From NCBI RefSeq assembly GCF_004310865.1, contig NZ_SIXI01000002.1, positions 62,001 to 126,000 on the forward strand: 64,000 nt of DNA. The letters are read 5' to 3'. The notes beneath the pieces were generated by a model. It was not told the DNA's origin. It did not search any database and worked only from the letters and a program-made list of their open reading frames with translations. A program made the translations under genes and the position numbers. Positions 36,645 through 53,086 of this stretch are shown here, one piece after another. Within the stretch, counting starts at the first letter, position 1. Every line of letters starts with the position of its first letter. Origin of the DNA: Aquabacterium lacunae. Lineage in GTDB: Bacteria; Pseudomonadota; Gammaproteobacteria; Burkholderiales; Burkholderiaceae_C.

Positions 36645-37304
<660 letters not shown>

Positions 37305-37331: not shown

Positions 37332-39542
37332 TCACAGGCCTTCCGATGTGCTCCAACGGGCGGCCCTTGCCCGGTGCAGCTTGGTGTAGCTGTCGATCAG
37401 GCGCTGGTGACGGTCCAGCCCTTCCAGCTGGATGCTGGTGGGTGTCAAGCCATGGAAGCGCACGCTACCATCCACCGAGCCGAGCACCGCGTCCATGCGG
37501 GGGTTGCCAAACATCCGGCGGAAATTGGTTTCGTAGTCGGCCAAGGCCATGTCGTCGTCCAGCACCACATCAAGCACCGCGTTCATGGCCTGATAAAACA
37601 GGCCGCGATCGACCGTGTTGTCGTTGTACTGCAGGAAGGCGCCCACCAGTTCTTGCGCCTCCTCCAGCTGCCCCAACGCGAGCTGAATCAGCAGCTTCAA
37701 CTCCAGCACGGTCAACTGACCCCAGACCGTGTTCTCATCGAACTCGACGCCGATCAAGGTGGCGATGTCGCCGTAGTCATCCAGCTCCGTGTCCATCAAC
37801 CGATCGAGCAGGGCTTGCAGTTGCTCATCACTCAGAGCGTGGATGTTCAGCACATCGGCGCGGAACAGCAAGGCCTTGTTGGTGTTGTCCCAGATCAGGT
37901 CCTCGACCGGGTAGACCTCTGAATATCCCGGCACCAGGATCCGGCAAGCCGTGGCGCCCAGTTGGTCATGCACCGCCACATACGCTTCTTTGCCCATGTT
38001 TTTGAGGATGCCGAACAGCAACTCGGCCTCCTCGGCATTGGCGTTCACACCCTGGCGAGAAAAGTCCCACTCCACGAAAGCGTGGTCGGCCTTGGCGCTG
38101 AAAAACCGCCACGACACCACACCGCTGGAGTCAATGAAGTGCTCCACGAAGTTGTAGGGCTCCGTCACGGCGTTGCTGGCAAAGGTGGGGCGAGGCAGGT
38201 CGTTCAGGCCTTCGAAACTGCGGCCCTGCAGCAACTCCGTCAGGCTGCGCTCCAGCGCCACTTCGAAGCGAGGGTGCGCGCCAAACGAAGCAAACACGCC
38301 GCCCGTCTTCGGGTTCATCAGCGTCACGCACATCAGCGGGTACTGGCCGCCCAACGAGGCATCTTTGACCAGCACCGGAAAGCCTTGCGCTTCCAGACCC
38401 TGAATGCCAGCCACGATGTGGGGGTACTTGGCCAGCACCTCTTGAGGCACATCGGGCAGGGCCAGTTCCCGCTCGATGATCTCGCGCTTGACGGCACGCT
38501 CGAAGATTTCGGACAGGCATTGCACCTGGGCTTCGGCCAAGGTGTTGCCGGCGCTCATGCCATTGCTGACAAACAAGTTCTCGACCAGGTTGGACGGGAA
38601 GTACACGACCTGACCGTCCGACTGCCGCACATAGGGCAAGGAACAAATGCCTCGCTCGGCGTTGCCTGAGTTGGTGTCGATCAGGTGCGAGCCACGCAGT
38701 TCGCCATCGGGGTCGTAGATCGCCAGGCAGTATTCGTCGAGTATCTCCGTGGGCAGTGCGTCATCGGGGCCGGGCTTGAACCAGCGCTCTTTCGGGTCGT
38801 GCACAAAAGCCGCGTTGGCCAACTCCTCGCCCCAGAACTGCCCCGCATAAAAGTGGTTGCAGCTCAGGCGCTCGATGTATTCGCCCAGGGCCGACGCCAG
38901 GGCACTTTCCTTGGTCGCCCCCTTGCCGTTGGTGAAACACATGGGCGAGTGCGCATCACGGATGTGCAGCGACCACACGTTGGGCACGATGTTGCGCCAC
39001 GATGCAATCTCGATCTTGATGCCCAGGGCGGCCAAGGTCGCGGTCATGTTCGCGATGGTCTGTTCGAGCGGCAGGTCTTTGCCTGCGATGTAGGTGCCCG
39101 CCTCGCCCACCGGCGCCAGGGTCAGCAAGGACTGTGCGTCGGCATCCAGGTTCTCCACTTCTTCAATGACGAACTTGGGGCCGGCTTGCACCACCTTCTT
39201 GACCGTGCAACGGTCGATGGATCGCAAGATGCCCTGGCGGTCTTTTTCTGAAATGTCCGCGGGCAACTCCACCTGGATCTTGAAGATCTGCTGGTAGCGA
39301 TTTTCCGGATCCACGATGTTGTTCTGCGACAGGCGAATGTTCTCAGTGGGGATGTCGCGCGTGTCGCAGTACAGCTTCACAAAGTAAGCCGCACACAGGG
39401 CCGACGAGGCCAAGAAGTAATCGAAGGGCCCGGGGGCCGAGCCATCACCCTTGTAGCGAATGGGCTGATCGGCCACCACCGTGAAGTCATCGAACTTGGC
39501 TTCCAGGCGAAGCTTGTCGAGAAATTTGACCTTGATTTCCAT
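37332..39542 (-). CDS. OsmC domain fused to YcaO domain protein
   Basis: A 736-residue two-part protein. Residues 1-140 are an OsmC-like domain with the paired cysteines C50 (SSALCAAYF) and C112 (IDRCTVKKVV). Residues about 165-736 align along their whole length with E. coli YcaO (586 residues), for example TNGKGATKESALASALGEY, YVSN-like FVSNGMSAGNTLAEAQVQ, DASLGGQYPL and ASFGAHPRFEVALERSLTEL. The Sx3ExxE ATP-binding glutamates and the ExxxR site (EIFERAVKR) are present, and the C-terminal helical domain follows. E. coli YcaO helps RimO; the OsmC part suggests a thiol or peroxide link, an inference. ATG 39542 has GGAG upstream. Confidence 0.93.
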   Translation of the reverse strand: MEIKVKFLDKLRLEAKFDDFTVVADQPIRYKGDGSAPGPFDYFLASSALCAAYFVKLYCDTRDIPTENIRLSQNNIVDPENRYQQIFKIQVELPADISEKDRQGILRSIDRCTVKKVVQAGPKFVIEEVENLDADAQSLLTLAPVGEAGTYIAGKDLPLEQTIANMTATLAALGIKIEIASWRNIVPNVWSLHIRDAHSPMCFTNGKGATKESALASALGEYIERLSCNHFYAGQFWGEELANAAFVHDPKERWFKPGPDDALPTEILDEYCLAIYDPDGELRGSHLIDTNSGNAERGICSLPYVRQSDGQVVYFPSNLVENLFVSNGMSAGNTLAEAQVQCLSEIFERAVKREIIERELALPDVPQEVLAKYPHIVAGIQGLEAQGFPVLVKDASLGGQYPLMCVTLMNPKTGGVFASFGAHPRFEVALERSLTELLQGRSFEGLNDLPRPTFASNAVTEPYNFVEHFIDSSGVVSWRFFSAKADHAFVEWDFSRQGVNANAEEAELLFGILKNMGKEAYVAVHDQLGATACRILVPGYSEVYPVEDLIWDNTNKALLFRADVLNIHALSDEQLQALLDRLMDTELDDYGDIATLIGVEFDENTVWGQLTVLELKLLIQLALGQLEEAQELVGAFLQYNDNTVDRGLFYQAMNAVLDVVLDDDMALADYETNFRRMFGNPRMDAVLGSVDGSVRFHGLTPTSIQLEGLDRHQRLIDSYTKLHRARAARWSTSEGL

Positions 39543-39702: not shown

Positions 39703-40692
39703 TCAGGAGGCATGCGCCTTTGCAGGCGCCCCCTTTGGCGTGCGCGCCCCATGTGTCGTCATCCGTGCCAACGGCTTTTCAACGAACAAGTGCACCAACA
39801 CGCCCGCGCAAACCGTCGACACCACAGCCAGCATTGTCACCGCATCCGCAGGCATAGCGGCCAACCAGCGCTGGACCACCTTGTACACGGCTGGCAATGC
39901 AAACACCTGAATCAGGTAGATGCTGTACGAAGCTTCACCCAGGAAAGACCCCAGCCCAGGGGCGATTTGCGGCATGCGGATCAGCCCGGCAAGCATCAAC
40001 GCAGCAGGCAGCCCCCAGATCAGTGCACGCCAGGATTCGACATCAAACAAGATGCCAGCACTGGCGCACAAACCTCCCACACCGACCAACGACAGCACCA
40101 TCCCCCACCGCGCCCCCACATGCAAAGTCCTCGCAACCAGAACACCCAGCACGAACTCGATCACCACCGGGGGAAGCCCAGCCACGACGCCCATCAGCAG
40201 CAGCCCTGAACACCCCCAGAGCACCAGCCGCATGTTCCGCGTCAGCAGGCACAGGGACATGGCGGCATAAAACAGCATCTCGTACTCGAGTGACCACCCC
40301 ACATAGAGCACTGGCATCTGCCCGATCAACCACTGCGAGCTGAACACCAACGACGCAAGCGCGTGTGTCCATGCAGGCGGCTGCCCCCGAAACAAAGCAG
40401 GAAGCACCAGAGGCAAGAGCACCAGCAAGACCGTCAAGGTGGCGTACAAAGGCACCACCCTGCGACACCGGGCCATGAAAAAGGCGCGCGCCTGCGGCAT
40501 CGTTTTGTCCACTGACAAGGTCAGGACCACCCCCGACAGCACGAAAAACACATCCACGCCGCAGCTGCCCCACTCACCAGAACGCCCGAGCCACCCGGTG
40601 TCGAGCCCGTACGTGGGCGCCATGCGCAAGGCGTGGAACATCACCACCATCATCGCGGCCACACCGCGCACAACCTGAAGGTTGAGGTACAT
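39703..40692 (-). CDS. Acyltransferase 3 family membrane protein (OafA-like) A
   Basis: A 329-residue integral membrane protein. The N-terminal helix carries the active-site motif RGVAAMMVVMFHALRMAP (catalytic His in FHA), and about ten hydrophobic segments follow, with FFVLSGVVLTL and SYSIYLIQVFALP. The family adds acyl groups to sugars of surface polysaccharides. The ATG at 40692 lies 8 bp after the stop of the second acyltransferase, so they are co-transcribed. There is no SGNH domain at the end, so acyl transfer alone is expected. The acceptor is unknown. Confidence 0.88.
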   Translation of the reverse strand: MYLNLQVVRGVAAMMVVMFHALRMAPTYGLDTGWLGRSGEWGSCGVDVFFVLSGVVLTLSVDKTMPQARAFFMARCRRVVPLYATLTVLLVLLPLVLPALFRGQPPAWTHALASLVFSSQWLIGQMPVLYVGWSLEYEMLFYAAMSLCLLTRNMRLVLWGCSGLLLMGVVAGLPPVVIEFVLGVLVARTLHVGARWGMVLSLVGVGGLCASAGILFDVESWRALIWGLPAALMLAGLIRMPQIAPGLGSFLGEASYSIYLIQVFALPAVYKVVQRWLAAMPADAVTMLAVVSTVCAGVLVHLFVEKPLARMTTHGARTPKGAPAKAHAS

Positions 40693-40700
40693 CGAAGTCC

Positions 40701-41819
40701 TCAGCCAAGCTTGGGGGCTTGAGGGTGGGCTCGCGAGGGCGCGGAACCCAAGATCGGGGGCCGCGCCGTCAACCAGCGGCGGGCGGCTTGCTCGACAGGT
40801 CGCTCGACACCCCGGTGCACCAGCCAGGCCACCATGCAGCACAGAACCAGCAACAAAGGCACCTCGATCCAGGCCGTGCTTTCAACCCACGGAAATGCCT
40901 TGATGACCTGCCGGACCACCGCCATGTGCACGACGTAAAAGGCGAACGACGCCTTACCAAGCGCCTGAAGCACATCAGATGACAAGAAAGCGTGCCAGCG
41001 CGTGCGAACCTGTCCCAGATGTGCCACCAGCAGGCAAACCGCCGCAGGCAGGTAAAACAAAGAGTAGCGGAAAGGCTCAGGCACCTGCTGCCCAAACAAC
41101 ATGCAGGCACCCAACAAGACAAAAGCCGCCCACGCGGGCATGCGCCAGTTCAACCAACCTTGTCGCCAAAGGTCATGCAACCACATGCCCACCAGAAACT
41201 CAAGCAAACGGAAGGCCGGAAAGACATAAAAGAGCCAGTGCGCCAAGGTGTACGCCCCGGCGACCTTGGCGTCAGAGAACCAGAAGTGCATGCAAACGGC
41301 CCCTGTCAACACCACCGTCAGCAAGGCCAGCGTCAACACATGTCTGAGCCGATCTGGCCAATGCACCAACCACAAAAAGGCGAGGTAAAAGAACGCCTCA
41401 TTGGACAAAGACCAGGTGGGTCCGTTGAGCGAGAAATACACCGTTGAATCGGGCACCCAGCTCTGCAACAGCAACAGGTTGGAAAGGGCTGCCACCGGGT
41501 CAAGGTCACCCCGCCTGGCTGCCAGAAAGAGGTAGGGCAAGGCCATGAACACATGCAAGGGCCAAAGACGTGCCACCCGCAGCCCCACGTAGACCCAAGG
41601 CGAAGTGTGCCCTTGGCGCAAAGGCTCCGCATACGAATGCATGAGCACGAAGCCGGACAGCATGAAGAAGAACGAGACGCCGAAAAAGCCCTGGTCGATC
41701 ACACCCTGCCCCATTGGCCCGACACCCACCCAGGCGAGGTGACTGCCGAACACCATCAACGCGGCGATGAATCGCAGCCCCGTCAACGGACGGATCTGCC
41801 CCGAACGGGCTTCGTTCAT
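40701..41819 (-). CDS. Acyltransferase 3 family membrane protein (OafA-like) B
   Basis: A 372-residue membrane protein of the same family: RPLTGLRFIAALMVFGSHLAW at the N-terminus (catalytic His in GSH), FFFMLSGFVLMHSY, and about ten hydrophobic segments ending WLVHRGVERPVEQAARRW. It is the first gene of a two-gene unit with the acyltransferase downstream and is divergent from the PEP-CTERM-like gene across 172 bp. The two proteins are not near-identical copies. A role in decorating an exopolysaccharide or O-antigen is inferred from the family. Confidence 0.88.
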   Translation of the reverse strand: MNEARSGQIRPLTGLRFIAALMVFGSHLAWVGVGPMGQGVIDQGFFGVSFFFMLSGFVLMHSYAEPLRQGHTSPWVYVGLRVARLWPLHVFMALPYLFLAARRGDLDPVAALSNLLLLQSWVPDSTVYFSLNGPTWSLSNEAFFYLAFLWLVHWPDRLRHVLTLALLTVVLTGAVCMHFWFSDAKVAGAYTLAHWLFYVFPAFRLLEFLVGMWLHDLWRQGWLNWRMPAWAAFVLLGACMLFGQQVPEPFRYSLFYLPAAVCLLVAHLGQVRTRWHAFLSSDVLQALGKASFAFYVVHMAVVRQVIKAFPWVESTAWIEVPLLLVLCCMVAWLVHRGVERPVEQAARRWLTARPPILGSAPSRAHPQAPKLG

Positions 41820-41991
41820 GACTCACTCCCTTTGTCCTTTGAATATGTCCGGAGATGCTACCCTTTCATCACTGCAGGACGGGAGGGCATTGACCCCATG
41901 CCCCCCCGGATCCATGTGCCGGAAAAACACGGAGCGAAGTCGATCGGTCAAAGTGAAAAAATCACGGCAAACACCCTTTGGAGGAATCTGC

Positions 41992-42720
41992 ATGCCTGGA
42001 TTGACCCACCGACCGACCAAGGCCCTGTGCCTTGGCATCGCCCTGTTGACGTCGAGCGGTGCTTGGGCCACGTGTGCGCCAACGCCACTGAACAATGACT
42101 GTCAAGAGGTCAGGAACCTGACCGTGAGCAGCCCCCCACCCGTGCGCATTGACGCGCAAGCCACCGAGCGTGCCTCTGGCGGATGGGACTATCGGTACAC
42201 CCTGTCGGTCGACAACACCGCGCAACTACCCTTCGTGGCTCGCAGTTGGCTGCTGCCGGTGGCGCCCGATGCCCAGCTGTCGGACATACAGGCCATGTCC
42301 TTCAGGCCCGCCGCGTTGACCGAAGCCATGCCCTTCAGCCGCACCGACGCAGGACTGCTCTTCGACATCCAATCGCCTTATCCCTTGGTCATGCCAGGCG
42401 CGGGCCGCAATCTGCTGGACCTGGCTCGAATCAGCTTTCACTCGCCCTATGGTCCACAAGCCAAAGCCGAATCGGCCATCCGCTTCGAGGGGATCACGAA
42501 CATTCGCACATTCAACGTGACCGGCGTCACGGTGTATGAAACCAGCACGGGCATCACACCCAATCAGCCCTCGTGGGTCATGAGTGCCATGCCGGGTTCG
42601 CCGATTGCGCTCAGCCCTGTGCCGGAGGCCTCCGCTGCCACCCTGTCGGTGATTGGCCTGGCGGGTCTGATGGCCTTGACGCGAAGAGGCAGAAAAAAGC
42701 CCCTGCACGCAGGGGCTTGA
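41992..42720 (+). CDS. Secreted PEP-CTERM-like protein
   Basis: A 242-residue exported protein. The signal peptide (ALCLGIALLTSSGAWA) is cleaved near residue 28. The mature part is beta-rich without a known domain and has a cysteine pair in CAPTPLNNDCQEV. The C-terminus has the sorting-domain layout: VPEAS (canonical VPEPS with Ala for Pro), a hydrophobic helix (ATLSVIGLAGLMALT) and the RRGRKK cluster. Such proteins are handled by an exosortase in exopolysaccharide-producing bacteria; no exosortase gene is in the window. ATG 41992 has GGAGG. Its last codons overlap the guaA terminator. Confidence 0.75.
   Translation: MPGLTHRPTKALCLGIALLTSSGAWATCAPTPLNNDCQEVRNLTVSSPPPVRIDAQATERASGGWDYRYTLSVDNTAQLPFVARSWLLPVAPDAQLSDIQAMSFRPAALTEAMPFSRTDAGLLFDIQSPYPLVMPGAGRNLLDLARISFHSPYGPQAKAESAIRFEGITNIRTFNVTGVTVYETSTGITPNQPSWVMSAMPGSPIALSPVPEASAATLSVIGLAGLMALTRRGRKKPLHAGA
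42693..42718 (-). terminator. guaA terminator inside the end of the PEP-CTERM-like gene
   Basis: On the minus strand AAGCCCCTGC/GCAGGGGCTT is followed by TTTTTT. It lies 26-50 bp beyond the guaA stop and within the last codons of the convergent gene. Confidence 0.85.
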
Positions 42721-42744: not shown

Positions 42745-44349
42745 TCACTCCCACTCGATGGTGGCAGGCGGCTTGGAGCTCACGTCGTAGGTCACGCGGT
42801 TGATGCCGCGCACCTCGTTGATGATGCGGCCGGAGGTGCGCTTGAGCATGCTGTAAGGCAGCTCGGCCCAGTCGGCGGTCATGAAGTCAGAGGTCTGCAC
42901 GGCGCGCAAGGCCACCACATAGTCGTAGGTGCGGCCATCGCCCATCACGCCCACGCTCTTGACCGGCAGGAACACGGTGAAGGCCTGACTGGTCAGGTCG
43001 TACCAGCTCTTGCCCGTGTCGGGGTCGATGGTGTTGCGCAGCTCTTCGATGAAGATGGCGTCGGCGCGGCGCAGCAGGTCGGCGTATTCCTTCTTCACCT
43101 CACCCAGGATGCGCACGCCCAGGCCCGGGCCCGGGAACGGGTGGCGGTAAACCATCTCGGGCGGCAGGCCCAGGGCCACGCCCAGCTCGCGCACTTCGTC
43201 CTTGAACAGCTCGCGCAGCGGCTCCAGCAGCTTCAGGCCCAGCTGCTCCGGCAGGCCACCCACGTTGTGGTGGCTCTTGATGGTGGTGGCCTTCTTGGTC
43301 TTGGTGCCACCGCTTTCCACCACGTCGGGGTAGATGGTGCCCTGGGCCAGGAAGGTCGCGCCCTTGACGCCATTGCCTGCAGCCTTGAGCTTCTCGGCCT
43401 CGGCCTTGAACACGTCCACGAACAGGCCGCCGATGATCTTGCGCTTGCGCTCAGGGTCGGTCACACCGGCCAGCTGGCCCAGGAACAGATCCGACGCATC
43501 GACGCGGATGACCTTGGCGTGCAGCTTGCCTTCGAACATGTCCATGACCATGTCGCCTTCGTTCAGGCGCAGCAGGCCGTGGTCCACGAACACGCAGGTC
43601 AGCTGGTCGCCAATGGCGCGGTGGATCAGGGCCGCAGCCACCGACGAATCCACCCCCCCCGACAGGCCCAGGATGACTTCTTCATCACCCACCTGCTCGC
43701 GGATCTTGGCCACGGCTTCTTCGATGTAGTTGCCCATGATCCAGTCGCCCTGGCAACCTGCGATCTCGCGCACAAAGCGGTTGATCATGGCAGCGCCCTG
43801 CACCGTGTGCGTGACCTCGGGGTGGAACTGCACGGCGTAGTAGCCCTTGGCTTCGTTGGCCATGCCGGCGATCGGGCAGCTGGGCGTCGAGGCCATCAGC
43901 TGGAAGCCTTCGGGCAGCTTCGTGACCTTGTCGCCATGGCTCATCCACACCTTCAGCATGCCGTGGCCTTCAGCGGTGGTGAAGTCGGCGATGCCATCGA
44001 GCAGCTTCGTGTGGCCGTGGGCGCGCACTTCGGCATAGCCGAACTCGCGGGTGTCGCTCCAGCTCACTTCACCGCCCAGTTGCACGGCCATGGTCTGCAT
44101 GCCGTAGCAGATGCCCAGCACGGGCACACCCAGGTCCCACACGGCCTGCGGGGCGCGCAGCTGGTGGTCCTCGTAGGTGGAGGCATGGCTGCCCGACAGG
44201 ATGATGGCCTTGGGCTTGTACGACTGGATGAAGTCGTCCGACACGTCGTTCGGGTGGATCTCGCAGTAGACGTGGGCTTCGCGCACACGGCGGGCGATCA
44301 GCTGCGTGACCTGGGAGCCGAAATCGAGGATGAGGATCTTGTCGTGCAT
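42745..44349 (-). CDS. guaA: GMP synthase (glutamine-hydrolysing)
   Basis: A 534-residue two-domain amidotransferase. The class I glutaminase has nucleophile C81 ([12 protein letters not shown]) and the His/Glu pair in HPEVTHT. The ATP-pyrophosphatase domain has [15 protein letters not shown], and the C-terminal dimer domain has [15 protein letters not shown] and ending GTIEWE-like [15 protein letters not shown]. It aminates XMP to GMP. It is the third gene of guaB-MFS-guaA on the minus strand, though a terminator after guaB makes separate transcription partly likely. Confidence 0.98.
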
Positions 44350-44370
44350 GGCAGAACTCGGGCAAGGGCA

Positions 44371-45606
44371 TCAGGCGCCGGCCGTGGGGGCCGGGCTGCT
44401 GCGGTAGCGGGAAAAATAGACGAAGGCGATCCAGGCCGCAATGCCCTGGAGCGCCGCACAGACGAAAAACGGAATGCCAACGCGCCAGTCTTCACGCGGC
44501 AGGTGCGAGACGGTGGCCATGAGCGGCCCCGCCATCAGCGGGCCCACCACGGCCGACAGGCTGACGATGGACGCCGCAGCCCCCATGCTTTCGCCCTGGG
44601 TGGAGGCATCGGCGGCGTTGGAGATCATGCTCTGGATGGCCGGCTGAATGCCAAAGCCCAGCACATTGCCGATGGTGATGGCGTACATCATCCAGGGCTC
44701 TTTGGCCAGGCCCCAGCAGCAGTAGGCCACCACGCTCGACAGCATCCCGATCATGGCCAAGCGCCCCACGCCCAGCTTGCGCTCCAGCGGGCGCATCAGC
44801 CCGCCCTGCATCACGGCGGCGGTCATGCCCAGGGCGAACAGCGACATGCCGTTTTCTTTCGGGGTCCAGCCAAACTGCAGGCTGGTGTGCAGCAGCCACA
44901 CCGTCTGCATGGTGAACTGCGTGAGCATGGTGCAGGCCAGCGCCCACAACAGGGGCTCGACACCCTTGAGCTGGCGCAGGCGGGCCAGCGCGCCAAACGG
45001 CGAGCGGAACACGAAGGGGCGGCGGTTTTCAGGCGCCAGCGATTCAGGCAGCACGAAATAGCCGTACACCGCATTCAGCAGGGCCAGCCCCCCCGACACC
45101 ATGAAAGGCAGGCGATGGTCGTCGTCACCCAGCAGCCCGCCAATGACCGGCCCCAGGATGAAACCGATGCCGAACATGGCGCCCAGCAGCCCGAAGTTGC
45201 GGGCACGGGTTTCAGGCGTCGTGATGTCGGCCACATAGGCATTGGCCACGGCAATGTTGGCGCACAGCATGCCGGCAAACATGCGCACCACCAGCAGCCA
45301 GATGAAGTCGGTGGCAAAGGCCGTGACGAAAAAGTTGATGGCCATGCCCGTCAGGCCGATCAGCAGCACGGGCCGGCGGCCGAACCGATCGCTCAATGCG
45401 CCCAGCACCGGCGCACTGAAGAACTGCAGCAGCGCAAAACTGAGCTGGATGGCGCCGTATCCCAGCGAAATCGCCGACGGGTCGGCATAGTGCGAACCCA
45501 CCAGCTTGGGCAGCACAGGCGCGATGAGACCGATCGACATCATGTCGATCAGCAGCGTGATCATGATGAAAGGCATCGCGGCCTTGCGGCCTGTCACGGC
45601 GGTCAT
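44371..45606 (-). CDS. MFS transporter (Tet/TCR-like, 12 membrane helices)
   Basis: A 411-residue major-facilitator protein with twelve predicted membrane segments. The loop 2-3 motif is GALSDRFGRRPVLLIGL, the helix 5 region FGIGFILGPVIGGLLGDD is the antiporter motif C, and the N-terminus (ITLLIDMMSIGLIAPVLPKL) resembles the tetracycline-efflux branch. Substrate prediction from this similarity alone is unreliable, so resistance is not claimed. It lies between guaB and guaA: 21 bp before guaA, and 57 bp after guaB across a strong terminator. Confidence 0.88.
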   Translation of the reverse strand: MTAVTGRKAAMPFIMITLLIDMMSIGLIAPVLPKLVGSHYADPSAISLGYGAIQLSFALLQFFSAPVLGALSDRFGRRPVLLIGLTGMAINFFVTAFATDFIWLLVVRMFAGMLCANIAVANAYVADITTPETRARNFGLLGAMFGIGFILGPVIGGLLGDDDHRLPFMVSGGLALLNAVYGYFVLPESLAPENRRPFVFRSPFGALARLRQLKGVEPLLWALACTMLTQFTMQTVWLLHTSLQFGWTPKENGMSLFALGMTAAVMQGGLMRPLERKLGVGRLAMIGMLSSVVAYCCWGLAKEPWMMYAITIGNVLGFGIQPAIQSMISNAADASTQGESMGAAASIVSLSAVVGPLMAGPLMATVSHLPREDWRVGIPFFVCAALQGIAAWIAFVYFSRYRSSPAPTAGA

Positions 45607-45617
45607 CGCGGTCCTGT

Positions 45618-45644
45618 AAAAAAAGCGGCCCCGCTGGGGGCCGC
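45618..45644 (-). terminator. Intrinsic terminator after guaB
   Basis: GCGGCCCC-CAGC-GGGGCCGC followed by seven T on the minus strand, about 20 bp past the guaB stop and just before the MFS gene. Confidence 0.92.
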
Positions 45645-45663
45645 CTGCCGAGGTGATGTCACC

Positions 45664-47136
45664 TCACTCCATGCGGTAGTTCGGTGCTTCCTTGGTGATC
45701 TGCACGTCGTGGACGTGGCTCTCACGGATGCCGGCCGAGGTGATCTCGACGAACTCGGCCTTGTTGCGCATGTCTTCGATCGTGCCGCAACCGCAGTAGC
45801 CCATCGAGGCCTTCAGGCCACCGGCCATCTGGTAGATGATGGTCAGCACCGAGCCCTTGTAGGGCACCCGACCTTCGATGCCCTCGGGCACGAGCTTGTC
45901 GGCGTTCGGGTTGGTGGTCTCGTCGTTTTCCTGGAAGTAGCGGTCGGCCGAACCGGCCTTCATGGCGCCGATCGAGCCCATGCCGCGGTAGCTCTTGTAC
46001 GAGCGGCCCTGGTACAGGATCACTTCGCCCGGGGCTTCTTCGGTGCCGGCAAACATGCCACCCATCATCACGGCCGAAGCGCCGGCGGCGATGGCCTTGG
46101 CGATGTCGCCCGAATAGCGGATACCGCCGTCGGCGATCAGGGGCACGCCGGTGCCCTGCAGCGCCGTGGCCACGTTGTCGATGGCGGTGATCTGGGGCAC
46201 GCCCACGCCCGCGATGATGCGGGTGGTGCAGATGGAGCCAGGGCCGATGCCGACCTTGACGCCGTCGGCGCCGGCTTCGACCAGGGCCAGCGCGGCCGCG
46301 CCGGTGGCGATGTTGCCGCCGATGACGTCAACGTGCGGGAAGTTCTGCTTGACCCAGCGCACACGCTCGATCACGCCGTGGCTGTGGCCGTGCGCGGTGT
46401 CGACGATGAGCGCGTCCACACCGGCCTTCACCAGCAGTTCCACACGTTCTTCGGTGCCCTCGCCCACGCCAACGGCCGCACCCACGCGCAGCTTGCCTTG
46501 CGGGTCACGCGCGGCGTTGGGGAAGTTGGTCTGCTTGGTGATGTCCTTGACGGTGTACAGGCCGCGCAGCTCGTTCTTGTCATTGACCATGACCACGCGC
46601 TCCAGCTTGTGCTGGTGCATCAGGGCCTTGGCTTCGGCCAGCGAGGCGCCGTCCATCACGGTGATGAGGCGCTCGCGCGGCGTCATGATGTCGCGCACGG
46701 GCACATCCAGGCGGCTCTCGAAACGCAGGTCACGGCCGGTCACGATACCGACCACCTTGCCGTCATCGACCACCGGGAAGCCGGAAATGCCGTGTTGCTT
46801 GCTCAGCTCGATCACGTCGCGCACCTTGACGCCCGACGAGATGGTGATGGGATCACGCAGCACACCCGACTCGTAGCGCTTGACGCGCGCCACCTCGGCG
46901 GCCTGTTGCTTGGCCGTCAGGTTCTTGTGGATGATGCCGATGCCGCCTTCCTGGGCGATGGCGATCGCCAGACGGGCTTCCGTGACGGTGTCCATGGCAG
47001 CGGACACCAGCGGCAGATTCAATTGGATGTTGCGGGACAGGCGGGTGGCCAGCGAAGTGTCGCGGGGCAACACTTGAGAATAGGCGGGCACCAGCAGCAC
47101 GTCGTCGAACGTGAGTGCTTTACCAAGCAGGCGCAT
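45664..47136 (-). CDS. guaB: Inosine-5'-monophosphate dehydrogenase
   Basis: A 490-residue IMPDH with the standard layout: the N-terminal barrel start [17 protein letters not shown], two CBS domains (about residues 95-215, [16 protein letters not shown] and [12 protein letters not shown]), the catalytic loop [18 protein letters not shown] with the active-site cysteine, and the flap region (GSADRYFQ). It oxidises IMP to XMP, the first step to GMP. The ATG at 47136 gives the usual [12 protein letters not shown] start; the frame's longer reading to 47610 is antisense noise. A TATAAT promoter lies 26 bp upstream. Confidence 0.98.
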
Positions 47137-47161
47137 GAACAGGCTCCAGACGCAAAAGCGG

Positions 47162-47189
47162 ATTATAAACGAGCCGGGAGGCTTCTCCA
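47162..47189 (-). promoter_or_regulatory. guaB promoter
   Basis: On the minus strand a perfect -10 TATAAT (47162-47167) has TGGAGA (47184-47189) upstream at 16-bp spacing, a 4-of-6 -35 match. It lies 26 bp before the guaB ATG, giving a very short leader. Confidence 0.65.
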
Positions 47190-47263
47190 CCGTCGGGCAA
47201 ACACGTGCACCTTGACACGCATTTGCACGCCACACCCGCCATGCCGCCACTACACTTTGCGCC

Positions 47264-47788
47264 ATGCACCCAACCGCCCGCCATTGCCTGCCCCTGGTGG
47301 CCCTGATCACCAGCCTGTTCACCCTGGTCACCCCTGCCACGGCCCAGCAGTGGAAGTGGCGAGATGCCAGCGGCCAGATCCAGTACAGCGATCGCCCGCC
47401 ACCCGCCACGGTGCCCGAGAAAGATGTGCTGGTGCGACCGCGCACCAACATCCCCTCGCCACGCCCCCTGATCCCGCAGGATGCAGCGTCTGCGGCCTCG
47501 GCCACCATGGCGGGCACGCCCGCAACGCCGACGGTGGACAAGCGTCTGGAAGCCGAGCGCAAGAAGGCCGAAGACGCCGAAAAGGAAAAGCAAAGGGCTG
47601 AAAAGGCCAAACAGGACGCAGAGCGCGCGGAAGGATGCGCAAGGGCGAAGTCCTACCAGAAAGACCTGAACGAAGGCATCCGCATTTCGCGCACGAATGC
47701 CAAAGGCGACCGTGAGATATTGGACGATCAGGGCCGTGATGCCGAAAAGGCGCGCATGCGCGAGGCCGTCAAGAATTTGTGCAAATGA
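47264..47788 (+). CDS. DUF4124-domain protein, exported
   Basis: A 174-residue protein with a signal peptide ([19 protein letters not shown], cleaved near residue 27), a short DUF4124 domain ([19 protein letters not shown]), a Pro-rich link and a highly charged coiled-coil ([20 protein letters not shown] and onward) ending near NLCK. The family occurs widely in Burkholderiales envelopes; its function is not known. It is divergent from guaB and convergent with rnfH. Confidence 0.85.
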
Positions 47789-51570: not shown

Positions 51571-52980
51571 TCAGATCGGCATGCCGATCAGGTCGTGGCC
51601 ATCGACCGACACGATGCGGGCCTTGGTGAACTCGCCCACCTTGAGCGTCTTGGAGGCTTTCTGCGGCGGCAGCAGGCGCACGGTGCCGTCGATCTCGGGC
51701 GCGTCGGCGTAGGTGCGCCCCACCCCGCCCTTGCGGCCCATGGCCGGGGCAGAATCGACAAGCACCTGCATGGTGGCGCCCACGCGGCTGTTCAGCTTGG
51801 CGATCGACACCTCTTCGGCCACGGCCATGAACTGGGCACGGCGGGCTTCGCGCACCTCGTCGGGCAAGGCGCCTGGCAATTCGTTGGCCGGTGCACCGTC
51901 GATCGGCGAATAGGCGAAGCACCCTGCGCGGTCAATCTTTGCTTCACGCAAGAAGTCGAGCAGGTAATCGAACTCGGCCTGGGTCTCGCCCGGGAAGCCG
52001 GCAATGAAGGTGGAACGCACCACGATCTCGGGGCACATCTCGCGCCACTTCAGCAGGCGTTCGAGGTTCTTCTCGCCATTGGCCGGGCGCTTCATGCGCT
52101 TGAGCACATCGGGGTGGGCGTGCTGGAAAGGCACGTCCAGGTAGGGCAGGATCAGGCCTTCGGCCATCAGCGGCACGATCTCGTCCACATGCGGGTAGGG
52201 GTACACGTAGTGCAGGCGCACCCAGGCGTCGTGTTCGCGGGCCATCTGGCCCAGGCGCTCGACCAGGTCGAACATGCGGGTCTTGACCGGCTTGCCGTCC
52301 CAGAAACCGGTGCGGTACTTCACGTCCACGCCGTAGGCACTGGTGTCCTGGCTGATGACCAGCAACTCCTTCACACCCGACTCGAACAGGGCCTTGGCTT
52401 CGCTCAGCACATCACCGATGGGACGCGAGACCAGGTCGCCGCGCATGCTGGGGATGATGCAGAAGCTGCAGCGGTGGTTGCAACCCTCGCTGATCTTCAG
52501 GTAGGCGTAGTGCTTGGGCGTGAGCTTGATGCCCGCCACACCGCGGGCTTCAGGCACCAGGTCGATGAAGGGGTCGTGGGGCTTGGGCACGTGCAGGTGC
52601 ACGGCGTCCATCACCTCTTGCGTGGCATGGGGGCCGGTCACGGCCAGCACCTTGGGGTGCACCGCGCGCACCAGGTTGTCACCGCTTTCGGCGGCCTTGG
52701 CCCCCAGGCAGCCGGTCACGATCACCTTGCCGTTTTCAGCCAGGGCCTCGCCGATGGTGTCCAGGCTTTCCTTGACCGCATCGTCGATGAAGCCGCAGGT
52801 GTTGACGATCACCAGGTCTGCGCCATTGAAGGTCTTGGAGGTTTCGTAGCCCTCGGCACGCAGCTGCGTGAGGATCAGTTCGGAGTCGGTCAGGGCCTTG
52901 GGGCAGCCCAGGCTGACGAAGCCGATTTTGGGCGCGGCGCCAGCGGCTGCGGGGGAGGAAGAGGTCTGTTCTGCGGTCAT
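51571..52980 (-). CDS. rimO: Ribosomal protein S12 methylthiotransferase RimO
   Basis: A 469-residue radical SAM methylthiotransferase. The N-terminal cluster cysteines are C26 ([12 protein letters not shown]), C62 ([11 protein letters not shown]) and C91 (VTGCLGAKA). The radical SAM CxxxCxxC is C167/C171/C174 ([11 protein letters not shown]), and a C-terminal TRAM domain follows. The region around CPKALTDSE and FIDDAVKES is the RimO type rather than MiaB. It adds a methylthio group to an aspartate of ribosomal protein S12. The ATG at 52980 is used; the longer frame to 53052 lacks family support. The OsmC-YcaO fusion 12 kb away may be its partner. Confidence 0.96.
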
Positions 52981-53086
52981 GGGGCGGTATTGTCCGGGAA
53001 ATCCGCCCGGGCTGGGTGCCACAATGCGCCATCGGGCCTTTCCTGAGCCCATTCACAAGACCCAAACCACACATTCGGAGGACCCC

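Follow-up and report, generated by a model that had tools for sequence, protein, structure and literature searches.

What does an OsmC-like domain do at the head of a YcaO protein, and on which substrate does the composite enzyme act? The question is raised by a gene of Aquabacterium lacunae located in the window, that is, the whole stretch of 64,000 nucleotides analyzed here (contig NZ_SIXI01000002.1, positions 62,001 to 126,000). A preliminary description, made from the letters alone, had read the product as an OsmC-YcaO fusion assisting the RimO-dependent methylthiolation of ribosomal protein S12, the OsmC part possibly coupling this modification to oxidative or thiol stress, or supplying a sulphur intermediate. 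According to the available part of a 2026 study (PMC13063428), E. coli YcaO, long annotated as S12 methylthiotransferase accessory factor, directly thioamidates Met82 of ribosomal protein uL16, in vivo and in vitro; the sulphide route is there said to be unknown, and no TfuA is encoded near uL16-type YcaO enzymes. The uL16 thioamide was discovered, and YcaO named as candidate, in PMC7550191. OsmC goes unmentioned in the available parts of both papers.

The fusion gene and its lineage

The open reading frame is on the minus strand; frame 1 of the plus strand has three stops over the same stretch. The features discussed are as follows.

37332..39542, minus strand: OsmC-YcaO fusion gene, 736 aa (TIGR03549, 1448 bits; NF040716, 874.5 bits; translation)
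39108..39542, minus strand: OsmC-like N-terminal domain, residues 1-145, Pfam match at 32-126 (PF02566, Foldseek matches)
37923..38930, minus strand: YcaO catalytic (ATP) domain, residues 205-540 (PF02624, ATP-site positions)
37362..37874, minus strand: YcaO C-terminal domain (YcaO_C), residues 557-727 (PF18381)
39393..39395, minus strand: Cys50 codon, position of the OsmC/Ohr peroxidatic Cys (codon checked; 114 of 114 distinct fusions)
39366..39368, minus strand: Cys59 codon, third invariant Cys of the OsmC domain (codon checked; 114 of 114 fusions)
39207..39209, minus strand: Cys112 codon, position of the OsmC/Ohr resolving Cys (codon checked; 114 of 114 fusions)
38946..38948, minus strand: Ser199 codon, counterpart of E. 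coli YcaO Cys53 (codon checked; Ser in 113 of 114 fusions)
51571..53052, minus strand: rimO, judged an incidental neighbour outside the system (TIGR01125, 528 bits; linkage not conserved)

The architecture given in the preliminary description holds. The fusion is real: residues 2-727 score 1448 bits with TIGR03549 (OsmC domain/YcaO domain-containing protein), an NCBIfam equivalog model specific to the fusion whose cut-off lies at 900, far beyond chance. Since this model covers exactly the OsmC-YcaO fusion, the architecture is already catalogued, and no difference from it is seen over the full length of the window protein. A profile search finds OsmC in the N-terminal part (Pfam, 32-126, 35.3 bits, cut-off 27.5); C50 and C112 are placed as originally described and have the cysteine pair of E. 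coli OsmC as their counterparts. The rest is a full-length YcaO, residues 150-731 aligning with residues 4-585 of the 586-residue E. coli chain 4q84 (E 5.7e-168, about 46% identity). As the preliminary description had supposed, no functional description of the fusion, nor a published function for the TIGR03549 family, was found in the literature searched, in which few subscription papers were covered; TIGR03549 occurs in the texts available as a search model, without functional account, and none was found in the available part of PMC7136475.

A tadA-like gene (tRNA adenosine deaminase, named by eye; 36645-37256, minus) begins 76 bases downstream of the fusion, in the same orientation. A tadA-like match was seen in one of 80 related loci, about 3 kb off (named by eye), so that a shared operon with the fusion is not conserved. 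Upstream are two overlapping membrane-acyltransferase-like ORFs (by eye; 39703-41819, minus) and, at 41767-42720 on the plus strand, a gene whose product looks secreted and has, at its C-terminus, a VPEA-type motif and a hydrophobic stretch, resembling a PEP-CTERM sorting signal. Genes looking like guaA and guaB (named by eye) follow at 42745-47610, minus; a guaA-like gene (again by eye) adjoins the fusion in 6/80 related loci, and this adjacency is an old neighbourhood in some relatives. The biggest neighbour family recurring within 4 kb is found in 8/80 loci.

Matches above the YcaO cut-off were detected in 42 of the 299 genomes of a phylum sample, one in each, 28 being fusions and 14 stand-alone proteins. 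The two forms never share a genome in this sample (0 vs. 4.5 expected; p 0.0025 in 87 genomes of the class, kinship uncorrected). A second draw, of 369 class genomes, gave 31 matches above the cut-off, 12 fusion-length and 19 stand-alone, as checked on the DNA. In trees of 82 YcaO sequences all 43 fusion rows fall in one clade adjoining the E. coli group, on a long stem (0.68-0.76); as no stand-alone gene sits inside the clade, OsmC probably joined once, and no natural OsmC-loss mutant was found inside it in these trees. The IQ-TREE tree is an unfinished best tree without supports; FastTree confirms the clade, the node value of 0.815 being printed after a re-rooting which can shift such values. 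The 39 stand-alone rows include E. coli and leave out L084, and the 43 fusion rows hold one duplicate. The larger set of 116 fusion rows corresponds to 114 genes (L001 repeats the window, L157 repeats L105), L038, which has no clean start, being excluded.

Both forms are present in genus g10 (stand-alone in G150, fusion in G202 and G292) and in genus g54 (stand-alone in G290, fusion in G216). The YcaO genes of G150 and G290 were considered as OsmC losses within the fusion clade, and discarded as such; the trees place them outside it, which points to replacement of one lineage by the other, in two genera.

A profile of the fused OsmC domain (A1) found a relative in one of the 14 stand-alone-YcaO genomes (G210, 8.6e-12), and no matching protein in the nine sampled genomes of family f14 that have YcaO, a family which looks like that of E. 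coli. The window OsmC domain, run by tblastn against the 39 stand-alone loci and their short flanks of a few kb, gave no match at E up to 1. Nearest among stand-alone OsmC proteins (E 2e-22 to 3e-27) are those of 11 genomes of other classes, in which this YcaO has no match. A pattern scan of viral contigs gave no relative.

Family f11 looks Pseudomonadaceae-like, its uS3 segment being identical at 136 of 137 residues to chains of 6spe and 7unr, which we take to be P. aeruginosa ribosomes; all nine of its YcaO genes in the phylum draw are fusion-length. So are all 15 YcaO genes above the cut-off in genus g30 (G058 and relatives, 22 distinct genomes). The gene is patchy in this genus, 15/25 genomes having it and 10 giving no match, and the modification hence seems dispensable; G657, the genome whose azurin matches best (98%), gives none for YcaO. 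The fusion is also found on plasmid pAZKH of Azoarcus sp. KH32C (locus L255; recorded as OsmC domain/YcaO domain-containing protein), beside hflX, a truncated haemoglobin and a DUF779 gene, and on plasmid-filed replicons of Cupriavidus, Caballeronia, Halomonas and Pseudoalteromonas. Cupriavidus metallidurans CH34 is among the laboratory strains with the fusion.

The YcaO part

E. coli YcaO (PDB 4Q84-4Q86) shares with the fusion the ATP site, the C-terminal domain and an acidic pI, but has no OsmC and differs at six clade-specific sites, C53, E320 and R463 among them. The 14 positions which we take, in part with uncertainty, to line the ATP site (E202 alone being named in the available part of PMC13063428) are as in E. 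coli in 43/43 fusion rows, except S16, which is Thr in all 43, and T188, which is Asn in 6; E202 is kept as E348 of the window protein. The pI of the YcaO part ranges from 4.35 to 4.75 across the fusion rows (4.66 in the window protein, 4.38 in E. coli). An acidic pI marks the uL16-acting YcaO group (PMC13063428), and would be expected of enzymes binding the basic uL16.

Of the 12 uL16-interface positions tested in E. coli (PMC13063428), the window protein shares only four. F57, R79, R295 and D325 (E. coli numbering) are kept in 43/43 fusion rows; E320 is replaced by Val in 114/114 fusions, R463 by Thr in 113/114, and R444 by Asp in 39/43 fusion rows. Just six sites set nearly all fusions apart from most stand-alone YcaO proteins, a list which depends on thresholds of our choice (95% of fusions, 85% of stand-alone proteins) and includes C53, E320 and R463. 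Two of the six, E320 and R463, are tested interface positions (p 0.0055, post hoc). These changes may denote either a rebuilt interface or a different substrate.

The C53 position is Cys in 36/39 stand-alone rows and Ser in 113/114 fusions; among the cysteines of E. coli YcaO it is second in conservation over the 39 stand-alone rows, C383 leading with 38/39. The CxxC formed by C53 and C56 in E. coli YcaO was rejected as a general motif, C56 being Cys in only 12/39 stand-alone rows. In the model, S199, the equivalent of C53, lies in a turn before the strand starting at F203, which corresponds to E. coli F57, an interface position in PMC13063428. C53 was lost on the branch that gained OsmC, which fits OsmC taking over a cysteine function; it is a lead only, the change being one event on one branch, and three stand-alone rows are also without that Cys.

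Candidate roles of the OsmC domain

Residues 1-142, modelled from 25 aligned sequences, gave a mean pLDDT of 88.5. Among the 50 PDB matches listed by Foldseek all but two are titled OsmC-like, Ohr or similar, the two carrying generic titles (1ml8, 'structural genomics'; 2ql8, 'putative redox protein'). In a model of the full-length fusion (pLDDT 86.5) the YcaO part superposes on its E. coli counterpart (TM 0.96 to 4q86), and the OsmC part is of low confidence. The OsmC domain is the most conserved part of the fusion, above the catalytic core: mean identity among 35 diverse fusions is 85.0% for OsmC, 79.7% for the YcaO core and 68.4% for the C-terminal part, and OsmC identity exceeds core identity in 538/595 pairs. 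C50, C59 and C112 are invariant in all 114 distinct genes. C50 and C112 occupy the positions of the two OsmC/Ohr cysteines, which are kept in 10 other OsmC proteins aligned (A3).

The domain has the fold and the two cysteine positions in common with Ohr/OsmC thiol peroxidases, but is part of a larger enzyme, and their active-site Glu is Phe in the fusion. In the Ohr of X. fastidiosa, Glu51, ten residues before the peroxidatic Cys61, raises the reactivity of this Cys together with an Arg (PMC5962072). The corresponding residue (Cp-10), a Glu in E. coli OsmC, is Phe40 in 114/114 fusions; Asp41 comes directly after it, so an acidic residue is not wholly missing. R29 is invariant in the 114 fusions, the gapped alignment leaving the counterpart of the Ohr N-terminal-loop Arg unfixed. 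The YhfA class of OsmC proteins likewise keeps the two cysteines and is without the Glu, as well as an Arg; YhfA is a stand-alone protein, and the role of the class is said to be uninvestigated (PMC8945050, available in part).

The fusion could be the uL16-type thioamidase of its genome, with a built-in sulphur-handling OsmC domain; this composite reading we put somewhat short of an even chance. Granted that uL16 is the substrate, sulphur handling by OsmC is about evenly balanced. The specific version, in which OsmC would be a dedicated donor, a persulphide carrier of OsmC fold releasing sulphide into the YcaO active site, is tentative and rather on the unlikely side. By homology with E. coli YcaO, the YcaO part would bind folded uL16, and ATP would activate the Met82-Gly83 amide; attack by sulphide would yield the thioamide, close to the ribosome's peptidyl transferase centre. 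A persulphide drawn from a general cysteine desulphurase route would be loaded onto C50 and resolved by C112, so that sulphide is released at the YcaO active site. The OsmC step would thus follow the Ohr two-cysteine cycle, sulphur replacing the peroxide oxygen. Stand-alone enzymes would use a YcaO cysteine (C53 in E. coli) or a separate carrier instead.

The working analogy is with YcaO-TfuA(-ThiS) systems, in which YcaO has a dedicated sulphur partner: OsmC would do the job of TfuA in other thioamide-forming YcaO proteins. The OsmC fold differs from that of TfuA. TfuA was not found in the fusion genomes (0/28 with a match at E 0.001; the control, M. acetivorans, gave one). Counted in favour of a sulphur role are the single clade, the high conservation, the invariant cysteines, the change of Glu to Phe and of C53 to Ser, and the missing TfuA match; counted against the composite reading are the E320 and R463 changes and the small number of identical interface positions. 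An outside hint comes from Rhodococcus erythropolis MI2, where an OsmC-like gene is clustered with sulphide:quinone oxidoreductase and rhodanese genes and its product is made more on a disulphide substrate; the authors take this product for a stress protein (PMC5157978). In the parts available, neither that paper nor PMC8945050 demonstrates persulphide chemistry for an OsmC protein. As E. coli YcaO works without OsmC, and one only of 14 stand-alone genomes has an OsmC relative, OsmC is not chemically required; we conjecture that it could matter where free sulphide runs low, a condition that would fit aerobic hosts.

The OsmC domain may alternatively serve the same uL16 thioamidase as a docking or structural part contacting uL16 or the YcaO core, the cysteines being of minor importance. 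That OsmC is the most conserved part of the fusion agrees with this, as do the two fusion-specific sites at the uL16 interface, as if the face had been rebuilt when OsmC joined. Three cysteines invariant in 114 genes exceed the needs of docking, however, and the cysteine pair likewise persists in the other OsmC proteins aligned; we regard this explanation as improbable. Slightly more doubtful still is a redox switch, in which a C50-C112 disulphide would toggle thioamidation under thiol or peroxide stress. Both cysteines are kept, and Ohr proteins form such a disulphide (PMC5962072), but the Ohr Glu is replaced by Phe40 in every fusion, which weakens a peroxide role, although Asp41 could substitute and the point is not decisive; moreover, no neighbour family recurs in more than 8/80 loci. 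Of the coupling to peroxide stress earlier proposed, the cysteine pair stands, and the peroxide part is weakened.

The substrate: uL16, another protein, or S12

Sulphur handling for thioamidation presupposes uL16 as the substrate, and uL16 is the likely one: the YcaO homology is full-length, the ATP site and the acidic pI are kept, the fusion is never found with a stand-alone YcaO in the genomes sampled, and one form stands in for the other in two genera. Of 48 genomes searched for uL16, 47 gave it; the loop has the sequence VRMG in 46, the window genome among these, and VRQG in the fusion genome G142. Genomes without YcaO have an identical loop, which alone proves nothing. RoxA, the uL16 Arg81 hydroxylase, was set aside as too common to be informative (27/28 fusion, 13/14 stand-alone and 35/45 YcaO-less genomes). 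Should the uL16-modifying enzyme of P. aeruginosa be a fusion, the substrate question would already be answered.

A move of the fusion away from uL16 to some other protein substrate would account for the long stem of the clade, the nearly fixed E320V and R463T changes and the Asp at R444 in 39/43 rows. Mutual exclusion with stand-alone YcaO and replacement within genera speak against such a shift, as do the acidic pI and the retained ATP site, and in E. coli the Kd stays under 20 nM with every single alanine substitution at the interface (PMC13063428); a new substrate is accordingly judged about as doubtful as the redox switch.

The presence of rimO in the window, about 12.0 kb from the fusion gene on the same minus strand, is as originally described. 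RimO is encoded in 24/28 fusion genomes and missing in four (G046, G050, G086 and G142), so the co-occurrence, a survey of which the preliminary description had proposed, is found in most genomes and fails in the remainder. The best RimO-family matches in these four range from 5e-75 to 1e-78, about 1e-158 or lower in the other 24; by direct search they are 28-30% identical, like MiaB. Ten of the 24 RimO-bearing fusion genomes have both genes on one contig, and two of the ten, the window genome and G234, have them within 15 kb, 5-12 kb apart. RimO was found near none of 80 named fusion loci, most with 6 kb flanks. In the class, RimO accompanies YcaO in 36/42 genomes vs. 27/45 without YcaO (p 0.009, kinship uncorrected); for the fusion genomes the comparison is 24/28 vs. 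39/59 others (p 0.07). Shared ancestry may explain this co-occurrence, and an indirect YcaO-RimO link is possible.

From the available part of PMC13063428, RimO by itself modifies a peptide of S12, models pairing YcaO with S12 or with RimO score low and are not confident, and mutation of ycaO in E. coli is cited as lowering S12 modification from 99% to 84%. That the fusion assists RimO in S12 methylthiolation as an accessory factor, with OsmC tuning it, is very improbable: the family name of NF040716, the drop in the E. coli mutant, the class-wide co-occurrence and the proximity in two genomes stand in its favour, but E. coli YcaO acts on uL16, the model scores are low, RimO is missing in 4/28 fusion genomes and the linkage is not conserved (0/80 loci). 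Of the initial interpretation as a whole, the architecture survives, the supply of a sulphur intermediate stays a candidate, and the S12/RimO target is not supported. The name 'S12 methylthiotransferase accessory factor', carried by NF040716 and by the annotation of TIGR03549, is probably misleading and out of date, since it covers a group with shown uL16 activity.

With uL16 as the probable substrate, what is new here is the proposal of a sulphur role for the OsmC domain, a testable guess. An OsmC domain probably added once to one YcaO clade, and conserved more tightly than the catalytic core, makes the fusion a natural clue to the sulphur source of the ribosome thioamide, which the available part of PMC13063428 leaves open. 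If the proposal is true, an OsmC donor would answer how the ribosome thioamide gets its sulphur in fusion-bearing bacteria.
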